From assembly GCA_902781745.1 (NCBI GenBank), contig CACZKM010000008.1, positions 1-44,559 of the forward strand: a DNA stretch of 44,559 bases, in the 5' to 3' direction. The DNA is from Oscillospiraceae bacterium. Its GTDB lineage: Bacteria > Bacillota > Clostridia > Oscillospirales > Oscillospiraceae. The notes beneath the pieces are model-generated. The model saw only the letters and a program-made list of their open reading frames with translations. It was not told the origin of the DNA and ran no database searches. Below, piece after piece: positions 6,982-42,676 of the stretch. Numbering within the stretch: position 1 is the first letter of the stretch; every line of letters begins with the position of its first letter. The position numbers and the translations under genes are program-made.

Positions 6982-8601
6982 ATGACTGGTGCAGAAGCAA
7001 TGGTGAAATGTTTGGAAGCCGAGGGGATCACCCGGGTCTTCGGCTATCCGGGGGTGGCCATCGCCCCCTTCTATGAGGGACTTTATAACTCCTCCATCGA
7101 GCACGTTCTGGTCCGCCAGGAGCAGAACGCCGGCCACGCCGCCAGCGGCTACGCGAGATTGTCCCGGAAGCCGGCGGTGTGCTGCGTGACCTCCGGCCCG
7201 GGGGCCACCAACCTCATCACCGCCCTGGCCACCTGCTACGCGGACAGCATCCCGATCATTGCGATCTCCGGCCAGGTCTCCAGCGAGCTGCTGGGGCGGG
7301 ACGTGTTCCAGGAAGCGGACATGACCGGGGCCACCCGGTCCTTCGTCAAGCACAGCTACCTGGTGAAGGACCCCGACGACCTCCCCCGGATCTTCAAGGA
7401 GGCCTTCTACATCGCCTCCACCGGGCGGAAGGGCCCCGTCCTCATCGACGTGCCCATCGACGTGCAGAACAAAAAGCTCAGCCGGGAGTTCAAATACCCG
7501 GATGAGGTGAACATGCGGGGCTACAAGCCGGAAGTCAAGGTCAATCTGCAGCAGATCAAAAAGGTGGTCGCGGCCCTGGACAAGGCCAAGAAGCCCCTGA
7601 TCTGCGCCGGCGGCGGCGTGATCCTCGGCGACGGAGAGGAGCATATCCGGGCCTTCTGCGAGAAGTTCAACATCCCCGTGGTGTCCACCATGATGGGCAT
7701 CGGGGTCATGCCCAAGAAGCACCCTCTGTACTTCGGGATGCTGGGCAACAACGGCAAGCCCTACGCCAACAAGGCCGTGGGCCGGTCCGACCTGCTGATC
7801 ATCGTGGGGGCCCGTCTGGCTGACCGGGCCATCCCCAAGCCGGAGAACCTGGTCCGCCGAGTGGGCGTCATCCACATCGACATCGACACGGCGGAGATCG
7901 GCAAGAATATGGGCCCCACCATCCCCCTGGTAGGCGACGTGAAGGATATCTTTGAGGCCCTCATGGAGCAGGAGATCCCCGTGGCCGACCAGAGCTGGAT
8001 CGATGAGCTGGAGGAGGTCAAGCACTCCACCGTGGACCCCAGAGTCTTCAGCGACAAGCTGGTCAACCCCAACCTCCTGGTCCAGATGCTCTCTGAGAAG
8101 ATGGACGACAACGCCGTCTACGTGGCGGACGTGGGCCAGAACCAGCTCTGGAGCGCGGACAACTACGTGATGAAGAACGGCCGGTTCATGACCACCGGCG
8201 GCATGGGCACCATGGGCTACTCCATCCCCGCCGCCATGGGGGCCAAGATGTACGATCCCTCCGTCCAGGCCGTGGCGGTCTGCGGCGACGGCTCCTTCCA
8301 GATGTCCATGAACGAGCTGGCCACCATCCGGGTCAACCAGGTCCCGGTGAAGGTGCTGGTGATGAAGAACCGCTTCCTGGGCCTGGTCCGGGAGTATCAG
8401 TACAACACCTACGACTCCCACTATTCGGGGGTCCGGCTCTACGACTGGCCCCGGTATGACAAGATCGCCGAGGCCTATGAGATGCCGTTCTTCTCCTGCT
8501 CCCACGACGCGGACCTGGAGAAGACCCTGGACGAATTCCTGGCCTGCCCCGACGCCTGCCTGATGGTGTGCGACGTGGACAGCGAGGACCGGGTGAAGTA
8601 A
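6982..8601 (+). CDS. ilvB: Acetolactate synthase large subunit (copy 1)
   Basis: This thiamine-diphosphate enzyme condenses two pyruvates to acetolactate, or pyruvate with 2-oxobutyrate, the first common step to valine, leucine and isoleucine. It is 539 aa. Visible are GYPG at 21-24, the catalytic glutamate 47 in VRQEQNAGHAA, the SGPGATN segment and the ThDP/Mg motif GDGSF near residue 434 closing with N about 28 residues later. It is slightly short relative to typical IlvB (550-580 aa). GGGAG precedes the ATG. A regulatory subunit follows 14 bp later. It differs clearly from the second copy at 40.5-42.2 kb and has no ilvC or ilvD nearby. Confidence 0.93.
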   Translation: MTGAEAMVKCLEAEGITRVFGYPGVAIAPFYEGLYNSSIEHVLVRQEQNAGHAASGYARLSRKPAVCCVTSGPGATNLITALATCYADSIPIIAISGQVSSELLGRDVFQEADMTGATRSFVKHSYLVKDPDDLPRIFKEAFYIASTGRKGPVLIDVPIDVQNKKLSREFKYPDEVNMRGYKPEVKVNLQQIKKVVAALDKAKKPLICAGGGVILGDGEEHIRAFCEKFNIPVVSTMMGIGVMPKKHPLYFGMLGNNGKPYANKAVGRSDLLIIVGARLADRAIPKPENLVRRVGVIHIDIDTAEIGKNMGPTIPLVGDVKDIFEALMEQEIPVADQSWIDELEEVKHSTVDPRVFSDKLVNPNLLVQMLSEKMDDNAVYVADVGQNQLWSADNYVMKNGRFMTTGGMGTMGYSIPAAMGAKMYDPSVQAVAVCGDGSFQMSMNELATIRVNQVPVKVLVMKNRFLGLVREYQYNTYDSHYSGVRLYDWPRYDKIAEAYEMPFFSCSHDADLEKTLDEFLACPDACLMVCDVDSEDRVK

Positions 8602-19514: not shown

Positions 19515-19735
19515 GATTTGACCTGAAAGATTCTCCGCCCGCCCGGGCGGATTGCCTCTTCGGTGCGCGGGGCCCTCCGGACCGGCTCTGCCGCCGCGTC
19601 CGCGCGGTCCCCCTTCGCTTTCCAGAGTCTCGTCAGAGGCCGATCCCCCTTGCCTGAGAGTTCTTGCTTCCCCTTCGGCTCCGCGCGTGCGAGGTCATCG
19701 CGCGGCATCTCCCGGTCTCGTCATCCGAACGATAT
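19515..19735 (-). ncRNA. Tandem glycine riboswitch
   Basis: Two glycine aptamers in series upstream of gcvT. Read on the minus strand, the first contains CCGGGAGA, then GCCGAAGGGG, then ACTCTCAGGCAA; the second contains CACCGAAGAGGCAA and TTTCAGGTCAAATCACAGAG. These are the conserved internal-loop and 3' segments of the gcvT class. Between them is a short linker, as in cooperative tandem aptamers. The position between a consensus promoter and the terminator ahead of gcvT supports an ON switch for glycine breakdown. Confidence 0.92.
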
Positions 19736-24694: not shown

Positions 24695-26065
24695 TCACTC
24701 AACCTTAGGGAGCTTGGCGAAGCTGGCCTGGAGCTCCTCGTCGGTGGGGATGTAGTCGTCCATCTTCCCGTCGTGGTACTTCTCATAGGCCACCATGTCG
24801 AAGTAGCCCGTGCCGGTGAGGCCGAAGACGATGGTCTTCTCCTCGCCGGTCTCCTTGCACTTGAGGGCCTCGTCGATGGCCACCTTGATGGCGTGGGAGC
24901 TCTCGGGGGCGGGGAGGATGCCCTCCACCCGGGCAAACTGCTCGGCGGCGGCGAAGACCTCGGTCTGGGGCACCGCCCGGGCCTCCATGAAGCCGTCGTG
25001 ATAGAGCTGGGACAGGGTGGTGCTCATGCCGTGGAACCGCAGGCCCCCGGCGTGGTTGGGGGCGGGGATGAAGCCGCTGCCCAGGGTGTACATCTTGGCC
25101 AGGGGGCAGATCATGCCGGTGTCGCAGAAGTCATAGGCAAAGACCCCCCGGGTGAAGCTGGGGCAGGAGGCGGGCTCCACGGCGATGATCTGATAGTCAG
25201 CCTCCCCCCGGAGCTTTTCGCCCATGAAGGGGGCGATGAGGCCGCCCAGGTTGGAGCCGCCGCCGGCGCAGCCGATGATCATGTCGGGCTTGATGCCGTA
25301 CTTGTCCAGGGCCGCCTTGGTCTCCAGGCCGATGACCGACTGGTGCAGCAGCACCTGGTTCAGGACGGAGCCGAGGACATAGCGGTAGCCCTCGTTGGTG
25401 GTGGCCACCTCTACCGCCTCGCTGATGGCGCAGCCCAGGGAGCCGGTGGTGCCGGGGTGCTCAGCCAGGATCTTCTGGCCTACCTGGGTTTCCATAGAGG
25501 GGGAGGGGGTCACGGAGGCGCCGTAGGTCCGCATGACCTCCCGGCGGAAGGGCTTCTGTTCATAGCTGACCTTCACCATGTAGACCTTGCAGTCCAGGTC
25601 GAAGTAGGAGCAGGCCATGGACAGAGCGGTGCCCCACTGGCCGGCGCCGGTCTCGGTGGTCACGCCCTTGAGGCCCTGCTTCTTGGCGTAATAGGCCTGG
25701 GCGATGGCGGAGTTGAGCTTGTGAGAGCCGGAGGTGTTGTTGCCCTCGAACTTGTAGTAGATCTTGGCGGGGGTGCCCAGCTTCTCCTCCAGGCAGTAGG
25801 CCCGGACCAGGGGAGAGGGGCGGTACATCTTGTAGAAGTCCCGGATCTCCTGGGGGATCTCGATGTAGGGGGTGGTCTCGTCCAGCTCCTGGGCGATGAG
25901 CTCGTCGCAGAAGACGGGGGCCAGGTCGGCGGCGGTCATGGGCTGGCCGGTGCCGGGGTTGACCAAGGGGGCGGGCTTGTTCTTCATGTCCGCCCGGAGG
26001 TTGTACCATGCCTGGGGCATTTCGTTCTCTTCCAGATAGATTTTGTAGGGGATCTTGTTTTCCAT
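24695..26065 (-). CDS. trpB2: TrpB2-type tryptophan synthase beta-like enzyme
   Basis: A PLP-dependent enzyme that converts indole and serine (or a serine phosphate) to tryptophan. The 456-aa length and the long N-terminal extension (KPAPLVNPGTGQPM, ETTPYIEIPQEIRDFYKMYRPSPL) mark the TrpB2 group rather than classical TrpB (about 400 aa). The PLP lysine is Lys116 in NTSGSHKLNSAIAQ. Another landmark is ETGAGQWGTALS. No trpA or other trp gene is adjacent, so it may salvage indole. The ATG at 26065 has AAAGGA upstream. It is the sole gene behind a Trp-specific T-box. Confidence 0.9.
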   Translation of the reverse strand: MENKIPYKIYLEENEMPQAWYNLRADMKNKPAPLVNPGTGQPMTAADLAPVFCDELIAQELDETTPYIEIPQEIRDFYKMYRPSPLVRAYCLEEKLGTPAKIYYKFEGNNTSGSHKLNSAIAQAYYAKKQGLKGVTTETGAGQWGTALSMACSYFDLDCKVYMVKVSYEQKPFRREVMRTYGASVTPSPSMETQVGQKILAEHPGTTGSLGCAISEAVEVATTNEGYRYVLGSVLNQVLLHQSVIGLETKAALDKYGIKPDMIIGCAGGGSNLGGLIAPFMGEKLRGEADYQIIAVEPASCPSFTRGVFAYDFCDTGMICPLAKMYTLGSGFIPAPNHAGGLRFHGMSTTLSQLYHDGFMEARAVPQTEVFAAAEQFARVEGILPAPESSHAIKVAIDEALKCKETGEEKTIVFGLTGTGYFDMVAYEKYHDGKMDDYIPTDEELQASFAKLPKVE

Positions 26066-26142
26066 GGGATACCATCCTTTCATTCACTGGGTTTGTTGGA
26101 AGGTGTGGTGCTGGGACAAGAAAGGAATCTGCTTCGGGAAAC

Positions 26143-26425
26143 AAAAAACTCCTGTCCCAACAATTGCTTGCTGGGACAGGAGAGATCAGACTTTCCTGCG
26201 GTGCCACCCGGCTTGACGGACGCTCGGCGCCCGCCCACTTTGCGCGTACCAACATACGCCGGCCTTTGTTCACGGAGGGCCATCTCCGGCTCGTATACTC
26301 AAGGGCAGACGCCCTTTTTCCCCTCGCCCTCAGAAGTCCATTCAGTCCTACGGTCTCTGCCGCGCTTCCACCACCCGCGGCTCGCTGGGAGAGGGAGAAT
26401 AGGACCTACTCACTCTTCTTCAACG
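26143..26425 (-). ncRNA. T-box riboswitch, tryptophan specifier
   Basis: On the minus strand, a long stem I region is followed by the T-box core GGTGGCACCGC (its TGGCACCGC at 26198-26206), which binds the free acceptor end of uncharged tRNA. It ends in a terminator, CTCCTGTCCCA with TGGGACAGGAG (26148-26182), and a six-T run. In the specifier loop context GAATGGAC the codon TGG (26338-26340) is followed by a purine, giving a Trp specifier. This fits the gene it controls. Uncharged tRNA-Trp should favour read-through into trpB2. Confidence 0.92.
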
Positions 26426-26435
26426 GTTTGGACGC

Positions 26436-38894: not shown

Positions 38895-40443
<1,549 letters not shown>

Positions 40444-40457
40444 GACGCTTGCCTCCT

Positions 40458-42176
40458 TTAGTTGACCAGGAACTCGGTGATGTGCATGCCGCCGCTGACC
40501 ATGGGCCGGACCAGCTCACCCTCCTGGATGATGCAGTCCACCACGTAGCCGCGGCCCTGCTTGGCCTCCGCCATGCCCTCCTGGATGGCGGCCTCCAGCT
40601 CCTCCACGGTGTGGACCTGGGCGCCCTTGAGGCCGTAGGCCTCCGCCAGCTTGACGAAGTCGGGGCCCCGCTCGGTGGTGGTCATGAAGAAGCGCTTGTC
40701 ATAGGTCAGCTCCTGCCACTGGCGGACCATGCCCAGCCGGTGGTTGTTGAAAACGAAGGTGAGGATGGGGAGCTTGTAGAACTCCTCGGTGGCCAGCTCG
40801 TTGCAGTTCATGCGGAAGGAGCCGTCGCCGGTGATGTGGATAACGTGCTTGTCGGGGTTGCCCACCTTGGCCCCGATGGCGGCCCCCAGGCCGAAGCCCA
40901 TGGCGCCGAAGCCGCCGGAGGTCAGGAGCTGACCGGGATAGTCAAAGTGGAAGTGCTGGATGGCCCACATCTGGTGCTGGCCCACGTCGGTGGCCACGAT
41001 GGTGTCCTCGGGGCTCAGCCGGGAGATGGTGCTGAGGATCTGCTTGGGGGTGAGGACGTATTCGTTCTCGTCGTACTCGGTTTCGGTGGGGAAGGAGAAG
41101 ACGTACTTCTTCCACTCGCTGTGGTTGTACTGGGGGACCTTCCGGTTGAGGAGCTCCAGCACCTGCTTGGCGTTGCCGATGATGTGGTGGTCGGTCTGGA
41201 CGTTCTTGTCGATCTCCGCCCGGTCGATGTCGATGTGGACGATCTTGGCCTGGCGGGCGAAGGTGGCGGGCTTCAGGGCCACCCGGTCGGAGAACCGGCA
41301 GCCCACGGCGATGAGCAGGTCGCAGCCGTCGCAGGCCATGTTGGAGGCCTTGGAGCCGTGCATGCCGATCATGCCGGTGGCCAGCTCGTCGGTGCCGGAG
41401 ATGCCGCCGCCGCCCATGAGGGTGATGGCCACGGGAGCGTCGATGCGGTGGGCGAACTCCCGGAACTCCCGGTGGGCCCGGCCCCGGACCACGCCGCCGC
41501 CGCAGATGAGCATGGGCTTCTTGGACTGGGCGATCATGTCCACCAGGATGTTCACGTCGTCCTGGTTGGGCTCGGGCATTTTCAGGCTGGAGGTGCGGGC
41601 CCGGCGGATGAGGCCGGCCAGGCGGCCGGTGGAGGTGTGCTTCTCCCGGGGGAGATACTCATACTCGGCCTTCTCGGCGGTGGCGTTCTTCACGATGTCG
41701 ATGAGCACCGGGCCGGGGCGGCCGCTGCGGGCCAGAGCAAAGGCCTCCCGGACGGTGTCCGCGATGTCGGCGGGGTCCCGGACCAGGTAGGTGCACTTGG
41801 TGATGGGCATGGCGATGCCGGTGATGTCCACCTCCTGGAAGGCGTCCTTGCCGATGAGGTTCTGGCTGACGTTGCAGGTGATGAAGACCACCGGGGACGA
41901 ATCCATGTAGGCGGTGGCGATGCCGGTGACCAGGTTGGTGGCGCCGGGGCCGGAGGTGGCGAAGCACACGCCCACCTTGCCGGTGGACCGGGCATAGCCG
42001 TCGGCGGCGTGGGAGGCGCCCTGCTCGTGGGAAACCAGGATGTGCTGGATGCGGTCCTGGTAGTGGTAGAGTGCGTCATAGACGTTGAGGATGGTGCCGC
42101 CGGGGTAGCCGAAGACGGTGTCGACGCCCTGCTCCAGCAGGCACTCCATCAGGATCTTCGCGCCTGTCATTTCCAT
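40458..42176 (-). CDS. ilvB: Acetolactate synthase large subunit (copy 2)
   Basis: The catalytic ThDP enzyme of branched-chain amino acid synthesis. It is 572 aa, full biosynthetic length. GYPGG at 23-27, catalytic Glu51 in SHEQGASHAADGYA and the ThDP motif GDGSF...NN near the C-terminal third are present, with DIDRAEIDKN typical of FAD-containing acetohydroxyacid synthases. GGAGG lies 9 bases before the ATG at 42176. It is the first gene of ilvB-ilvN-ilvC and follows a leader-peptide attenuator. Confidence 0.97.
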   Translation of the reverse strand: MEMTGAKILMECLLEQGVDTVFGYPGGTILNVYDALYHYQDRIQHILVSHEQGASHAADGYARSTGKVGVCFATSGPGATNLVTGIATAYMDSSPVVFITCNVSQNLIGKDAFQEVDITGIAMPITKCTYLVRDPADIADTVREAFALARSGRPGPVLIDIVKNATAEKAEYEYLPREKHTSTGRLAGLIRRARTSSLKMPEPNQDDVNILVDMIAQSKKPMLICGGGVVRGRAHREFREFAHRIDAPVAITLMGGGGISGTDELATGMIGMHGSKASNMACDGCDLLIAVGCRFSDRVALKPATFARQAKIVHIDIDRAEIDKNVQTDHHIIGNAKQVLELLNRKVPQYNHSEWKKYVFSFPTETEYDENEYVLTPKQILSTISRLSPEDTIVATDVGQHQMWAIQHFHFDYPGQLLTSGGFGAMGFGLGAAIGAKVGNPDKHVIHITGDGSFRMNCNELATEEFYKLPILTFVFNNHRLGMVRQWQELTYDKRFFMTTTERGPDFVKLAEAYGLKGAQVHTVEELEAAIQEGMAEAKQGRGYVVDCIIQEGELVRPMVSGGMHITEFLVN

Positions 42177-42280
42177 AAGGTTGTTCCTCCTCCTTGTTTC
42201 CTTTGGATGGTAAACTTCATGCGCGGCGGTGGGCCGCGAAGGGGCTGCAAAAGGGAAGGGGTATGAAGTTTTTGTGTAAC

Positions 42281-42327
42281 AAAAAGCTCTTATGGTCCTC
42301 GTTGCAAAACGGATCCCATAAGAGCTT
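42281..42327 (-). terminator. Attenuator terminator of the ilvBNC leader
   Basis: Minus strand: AAGCTCTTATGG (42316-42327) pairs perfectly with CCATAAGAGCTT (42284-42295), followed by a T-run. It stands about 105 bases before ilvB. Its 5' loop (ATCCGTTTTG) can pair with the earlier GGAACGGAT, giving an alternative structure that would disrupt the stem. Confidence 0.85.
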
Positions 42328-42415
42328 ATAAGTACGTTCGTCTATCCGCGGGCCTGTATAGGGCTCGGCCTCGGATCGTCGGGTTGCTTATCCGTTCCGG
42401 ACATCACGTTTCGCA

Positions 42416-42496
42416 TCATTTCGGTACAACTACGCTCCGCAGCTGTACCGGAATAATGTTGATGGTCATGTTCAGAGTAACGGCCAGCAGCTTCAT
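42416..42496 (-). CDS. Branched-chain leader peptide for ilvBNC attenuation
   Basis: A 26-codon reading frame, MKLLAVTLNMTINIIPVQLR then SVVVPK and TGA, in the transcribed leader of ilvBNC. Twelve of 26 residues are Leu, Ile or Val, including Ile-Ile and Val-Val-Val. GAGG lies 8 bases before the ATG. A near-perfect hairpin (GGTACAGCT/AGTTGTACC) overlaps the last codons, and an attenuator terminator follows about 90 bases later. This is the design of leader-peptide attenuation: stalling at Leu/Ile/Val codons would change RNA folding. Its translation is inference from the sequence. Confidence 0.82.
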   Translation of the reverse strand: MKLLAVTLNMTINIIPVQLRSVVVPK

Positions 42497-42545
42497 ATCC
42501 GACGCCTCACGATACACCCCACGGGTGATTTTGATGGTTTCCCCA

Positions 42546-42574
42546 AAGATAGCACTGAAATAGAAGTATGTCAA
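42546..42574 (-). promoter_or_regulatory. Promoter of the ilvBNC operon
   Basis: Minus strand TTGACA (42569-42574), 17 bp, TATCTT (42546-42551), about 50 bases before the leader-peptide start. Confidence 0.8.
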
Positions 42575-42676
42575 TCGCTTTTCCGCAATTTTCCCGTTTT
42601 GTCCTGCCCGAAAATGCTTCCCGGAAGAAATTTGTCAACCTTGACCAAGAGGTCCAAAACACTTTGTGGAAGGGAT

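Follow-up and report, generated by a model that had tools for sequence, protein, structure and literature searches.

The window analysed here is a stretch of 44,559 nucleotides from an Oscillospiraceae genome (contig CACZKM010000008.1), which carries on its minus strand the genes ilvB (acetolactate synthase large subunit, 40458-42176; TIGR00118, 686 bits), ilvN (acetolactate synthase small subunit, 39895-40443) and ilvC (ketol-acid reductoisomerase, 38895-39914). Ahead of these genes, on the same strand, the elements of a leader-peptide attenuator are present, in the order promoter-like site, GAGG, leader frame, hairpin, spacer and terminator with T-run, followed by ilvB from position 42176. 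The predicted σ70-like promoter (TTGACA-17-TATCTT, 42546-42574) is weak when taken alone, since one site was found where shuffled sequences give an expected 0.7. The GAGG ribosome-binding site (42505-42508) lies 8 nt 5' of the ATG at 42496, which opens a leader ORF of 26 codons plus stop (42416-42496). The encoded peptide, MKLLAVTLNMTINIIPVQLRSVVVPK, contains four Leu, three Ile and five Val residues, so that 12 of its 26 codons would specify end products of the pathway; ilvB, ilvN and ilvC make these same candidate sensed amino acids. The predicted intrinsic terminator (42284-42327) is placed between the leader frame and the first gene, with a perfect 12-bp stem (arms 42327-42316 and 42295-42284, 20 nt between them) and a T-run to about 42281; it was absent from the list of a simple terminator scan because that scan had a loop limit of 8.

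Folding and alignment place a hairpin (P1, the 1:2 hairpin) at 42414-42458, over the second half of the leader frame and its Leu/Ile/Val ("hungry") codons, with an outer stem CATTATT/AATGATG and an inner stem CGGTACAGCTGCG/CGTAGTTGTACCG. The leader RNA has a folding energy of -80.8 kcal/mol (z -6.3 versus 200 shuffles), and its best structure includes this hairpin and the terminator. When the 236-nt region was dinucleotide-shuffled 2000 times, a comparable Leu/Ile/Val-rich frame arose once and a perfect 11-bp terminator never. An initial annotation of this DNA had described a 26-residue leader with 12 branched-chain residues, a promoter and ribosome site ahead of it, and a hairpin overlapping the branched-chain codons followed by a perfect 12-bp terminator with a T-run; the same frame and elements were recovered here, and its central interpretation, that ilvBNC is controlled by a leader-peptide attenuator, is supported. 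Downstream of the terminator, and before the ribosome site of ilvB, there is also an inverted repeat of 9 bp that encloses a GC hairpin (AAACTTCAT/ATGAAGTTT; 42212-42271, minus strand; z -3.96, 1/200 shuffles equally good), the arms of which were not found in the other 13 upstream regions from the genus.

Competing helices and the ribosome

The antiterminator pairs strand 2, TGCGAAACG (42407-42415), with strand 3, CGTTTTGCA (42303-42311), the latter within the terminator loop. This helix excludes both the terminator and the hungry-codon hairpin, a relationship that is less clear in L037, in L211 and in three distant members of the genus. Comparison was based on the genus, in which IlvB was found in 15/16 genomes; upstream sequence was obtained for 14 loci that include the IlvB N-terminus, the window copy among them. 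All 14 upstream regions contain a promoter-like site (as a TTGACA/TATC(T/G)T pair), a leader and a terminator, with GAGG before eight of the leaders, GGAG before five and neither in L021. In the 14-row alignment the 1:2 hairpin is paired in 91.2% of cells, versus 17.5-67.7% in slid controls, and has six pairs with both sides changed; 0/500 shuffles were as high. The antiterminator is paired in 86.7% of cells versus 31.3-44.9% in slid controls, and its covariation score exceeds those of all 500 shuffles; there is no excess of pairs with changes at both positions (2 versus 1.9 in shuffles) or of further pair types (11 versus 10.6). Within the alignment the window copy fits 9/12 antiterminator pairs and the three distant genus members fit 5-6/12.

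Because relatedness inflates the shuffle test, strand 2 of each leader was also crossed with the terminators of the others, using 19 of 29 rows after near-copies were dropped; the permutations did not include L112 and L201, for which the terminator finder had chosen the wrong hairpin. Across these 19 representatives strand 2 pairs with its own terminator at -19.5 kcal/mol on average, versus -14.5 kcal/mol with those of others, a difference for which none of 20000 permutations was as low, and the same result (0/20000) was obtained with 15 divergent rows. The own terminator ranks first in 6/19 and within the first three in 11/19, with poor ranks for L037 (13th), L211 (8th), and L203 and L205 (both 6th). 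Sequence and comparison establish the leader frame, the two competing helices, the terminator and the linkage to genes of the pathway.

The effect of a translating ribosome was modelled by removing the RNA up to 13 nt past the first base of the A-site codon, and folding the remainder with strand 3 out and the terminator 3' arm not yet made; this is an equilibrium model in which the helix is supplied in advance. For the window copy the modelled antiterminator probability is 0.00 for ribosome-free RNA and 0.98-0.99 with codons 10-23 in the A site, and from codon 24 on the antiterminator is blocked. This off-on-blocked pattern is predicted for 6/7 further leaders, with the block where the Leu/Ile/Val run ends in L013, L014, L015 and L017 and a few codons past it in L206 and L224; L206 dips once to 0.67 within its run, and L116 is erratic.

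The initial annotation had proposed a different antiterminator, GGAACGGAT with ATCCGTTTTG. This pairing can form, yet relatives keep TGCGAAACG:CGTTTTGCA instead, of which the conserved strand sits further upstream, and the proposed helix loses in the masking model: its probability is at most 0.011 at the eight stall positions modelled between codons 7 and 23, and with a stall at codon 3 it reaches 0.364 versus 0.529 for TGCGAAACG:CGTTTTGCA. We therefore rejected it as probably wrong.

From sequence and modelling combined, it is very probable that a ribosome-mediated transcription attenuator of the classic type controls ilvBNC. The translation, stalling, termination, direction of response and amino acids sensed that we infer would fit together as follows. 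Transcription would start near 42538, with a ribosome following on the 26-codon leader. With Leu, Ile and Val tRNAs charged and plentiful, the ribosome would clear the hungry codons and either cover strand 2 or allow the 1:2 hairpin to re-form; strand 2 would then be kept from strand 3, the terminator could form, and transcription would end near 42281. If any one of the three amino acids were short, the ribosome would stall at the hungry codons, where it covers strand 1, and the 1:2 hairpin would not form, leaving strand 2 to pair with strand 3, so that the terminator would be pre-empted and ilvBNC transcribed.

Conservation of the leader frame and alternative explanations

The 14 genus leaders are 26-49 codons long, of which 11-18 specify Leu, Ile or Val. 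Within the frame, as far as the last hungry codon, all 25 gap runs are multiples of three (3, 6, 9 or 15 bases, from five distinct gaps), whereas past the hungry codons gaps are of 1, 2, 8, 22 and similar lengths, which are not multiples of three. An early stop directly follows the hungry codons in the window copy and L017-L019 through a small gap, and in L020 through a substitution, while the remaining genus members read on past them with the RNA beneath conserved, which suggests that the hungry run is kept as codons and strand 2 as RNA. The density of Leu/Ile/Val codons, on which the initial annotation had made its reading depend, is maintained in relatives. Over 37 leaders Leu, Ile and Val account for 506/1325 codons (38%), versus 27% and 8% when the two alternative frames are read, a comparison biased by several non-genus leaders having been chosen for their Leu/Ile/Val density. 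With regard to codon choice, Ile is encoded by ATT in 2/3 cases in the window leader versus 5/106 Ile codons in five window genes, and Val by GTA in 3/5 versus 3/122; part of this excess is forced by pairing.

If a T-box or another riboswitch, such as a ppGpp-type aptamer, controlled the terminator, the Leu/Ile/Val-rich frame would be coincidental. Many family members do have a T-box before ilvB, and in the genus the LeuA-like genes are preceded by a T-box core motif. However, an Rfam search of the window ilvB locus at E-values up to 10 gave five hits, all far under their cut-offs and none a T-box, in agreement with the initial annotation; at gathering score Rfam had no match in the 11 loci given, eight of which carry this leader class. 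Together with frame gaps in multiples of three, this makes control by such an RNA highly improbable. The peptide might instead act by nascent-chain or drug-type stalling that depends on its own sequence and not on a shortage of charged tRNA, and residues resembling the tail NSAKSHA do recur in other genera. This tail overlies strand 2. Genus leaders either translate strand 2 in a different frame (EIMLNVM) or have it past the stop, so the tail looks kept as RNA, and the peptides vary greatly at constant Leu/Ile/Val density; we consider peptide-specific stalling hardly credible.

It could also be argued that a constitutive partial terminator and mRNA structure set the level of ilvBNC without amino acid sensing, as regulation at this locus is a prediction. 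Such an arrangement leaves unexplained why relatives keep two mutually exclusive helices and a Leu/Ile/Val-rich frame, and we regard it as very unlikely. Attenuation by a ribosome stalling for lack of charged tRNA is the reading that we prefer.

Distribution of the leader and exchange with T-boxes

We searched 400 genomes of the family with a covariance model of the leader (20 rows), using strict filters at which weak matches are lost, as in all covariance searches reported here. Matches were obtained in 27 genomes, giving 30 rows, of which 24 were credible on reading (14 training loci and 10 new); the six judged false were unlike leaders (L212, L216), low-complexity repeats (L214, L215) or the reverse strand of true hits (L217, L218). 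Going by how the next gene begins, and for L205 and L206 by family models, the credible leaders precede ilvB orthologues, leuA (L206-L209) or another type of acetolactate synthase (L205, L210, L211). A second model (23 rows) was used on 394 genomes of the order, which named relatives such as L037, L039 and L059 indicate to be Oscillospirales, and on 391 of the class. It matched 17 order genomes, with 15 credible rows (five being training loci) in families f1, f7, f10, f13, f20 and f23 and two judged false (L215, L228), and six class genomes, with four credible when the own genome is counted and two judged false (L233, L234). The credible class matches include L232 and L230, the latter preceding a LeuA-like gene that scores under the family cut-offs, and L231, which precedes a gene with a start similar to that LeuA-like gene. 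Members of the leader class thus precede acetolactate synthase genes, ilvB among them, and leuA; they occur in six families of the order and in a few genomes outside it. The own genome gave a single match at these strict filters, and hence no second leader copy. A plasmid search found nothing, and neither the leader nor a T-box motif was seen ahead of ilvD in 13 loci scanned (14 were matched; L163 covered only ~380 upstream bases).

Other short frames outside the described class were noted during this survey. In Oribacterium sinus DSM 17245 (L102, 2836-2982) a leader MQNIWLAIIMILAVIIVLHDNVCLRNATFER precedes ilvB, with a 9-base complement (GCGTAACGC/GCGTTACGC) linking leader and terminator loop. 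Short Leu/Ile/Val-rich frames also lie upstream of ilvB in Oligosphaera ethanolica DSM 24202 (L077), where a terminator-like hairpin follows the frame, and in L078.

Rfam was run on 40 of the 46 loci that belong to the family but not to the genus, and 20 of these 40 have a T-box above gathering score ahead of ilvB. A leader takes the place of the T-box in four (L112, L113, L116, L117), or in five if the weaker L118 is included. In an IlvB tree of 48 rows and three outgroups, with L118 labelled as leader despite its weakness and 13 T-box rows (L128 and L133 by sequence motif only), the T-box and leader labels cluster. The T-box pair L111 and L115 (support 100/99) is nested in a supported clade (97/95) that comprises 19 leader, five unassigned and two T-box rows, and the starred branches of the tree require at least two changes for the T-box and at least six for the leader, which may have run in either direction. 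With both sensors in related lineages, the tree offers a natural comparison of two sensors of tRNA charge exchanged on one gene. We consider it likely that these leaders form one homologous attenuator family, unmatched in the Rfam copy used, which is shared by six or more families of the order and extends into further orders of the class, is found before ilvB, before leuA and before a second type of acetolactate synthase gene, swaps with T-boxes before orthologous ilvB, and keeps strand 2 as RNA while the frame over it changes.

Other regulators in the genus and window were recorded alongside. The T-box core motif was found upstream of all 15 LeuA-like loci read in the genus (18 rows from the search, three fragments or weak hits left out; none above the TIGR00973 cut-off). 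A search for CodY in the 16 genomes of the genus, several of which are incomplete, gave no hit, with Bacillus subtilis and Lactococcus lactis positive as controls. In the window itself a T-box-like element (26169-26432, minus strand; 75.6 bits, under the Rfam cut-off of 93 bits) precedes a TrpB-like gene (24695-26083), in line with the T-box core that had been noted upstream of trpB2. A glycine riboswitch aptamer above gathering score (19631-19724, minus strand) lies ahead of gcvT, and a second biosynthetic-type acetolactate synthase large subunit, 37% identical to ilvB, is encoded at 6982-8601 on the plus strand (TIGR00118, 596 bits), with no leader evident ahead of it by eye. Branched-chain synthesis would be under ribosome-mediated attenuation in Clostridia in which CodY is not detectable and the LeuA-like gene has a T-box motif, and the window leader may serve as a model for annotating similar leaders in uncultured genomes.

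Comparison with known attenuators

Attenuators of Escherichia coli follow a logic of 1:2, 2:3 and 3:4 pairings in which strand 1 holds the hungry codons, and their strand 3 is usually the 5' arm of the terminator. The window leader shares this logic and the hungry codons on strand 1, and differs in that its strand 3 is mainly terminator loop. The E. coli examples mentioned in PMC6123439 precede ilvBN, ilvGMEDA and leuABCD. The attenuator principle is known, while the leader family described here appears to be undescribed in the literature: among the literature matches listed, in which subscription journals are poorly covered, no title concerned branched-chain leaders in Oscillospirales or other Clostridia.

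Leader-peptide attenuators also control histidine genes in Firmicutes, according to PMC2965389 and PMC9413887, the former describing them in place of T-boxes and an exchange between both; the leader described here would likewise use leader-peptide attenuation, there for histidine and here for branched-chain biosynthesis. The ilvB-II motif of Corynebacterium and the ilvB-OMG motif, described in PMC10272879, are uORF-based and located ahead of ilvB, as is the window leader, which is longer than the 15-17 aa given there as usual for ilvB-II. Rfam matched neither motif at the window locus, although the copy used may lack both models.

The initial annotation had presented translation-coupled attenuation as the enterobacterial and actinobacterial solution. 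This is contradicted by PMC5794164 and PMC6123439, in which attenuation of branched-chain genes is reported for Staphylococcus aureus and Listeria monocytogenes (for the latter an ilv-leu leader attenuator cited in PMC6123439) and predicted for Lactococcus and Streptococcus, so that the window attenuator belongs to a known kind. In S. aureus, according to PMC5794164, the ilv-leu leader has a Leu/Ile/Val-rich 26-aa peptide, a terminator and proposed ribosome stalling, precedes ilvD and works alongside CodY. The likeness to S. aureus and L. monocytogenes, in a Firmicute host, a Leu/Ile/Val-rich leader, a terminator and proposed stalling, is one of description and does not imply homology; unlike its S. 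aureus counterpart, the window leader precedes ilvB, occurs in a genus in whose 16 genomes CodY was not detected, and has its strand 3 in the terminator loop.
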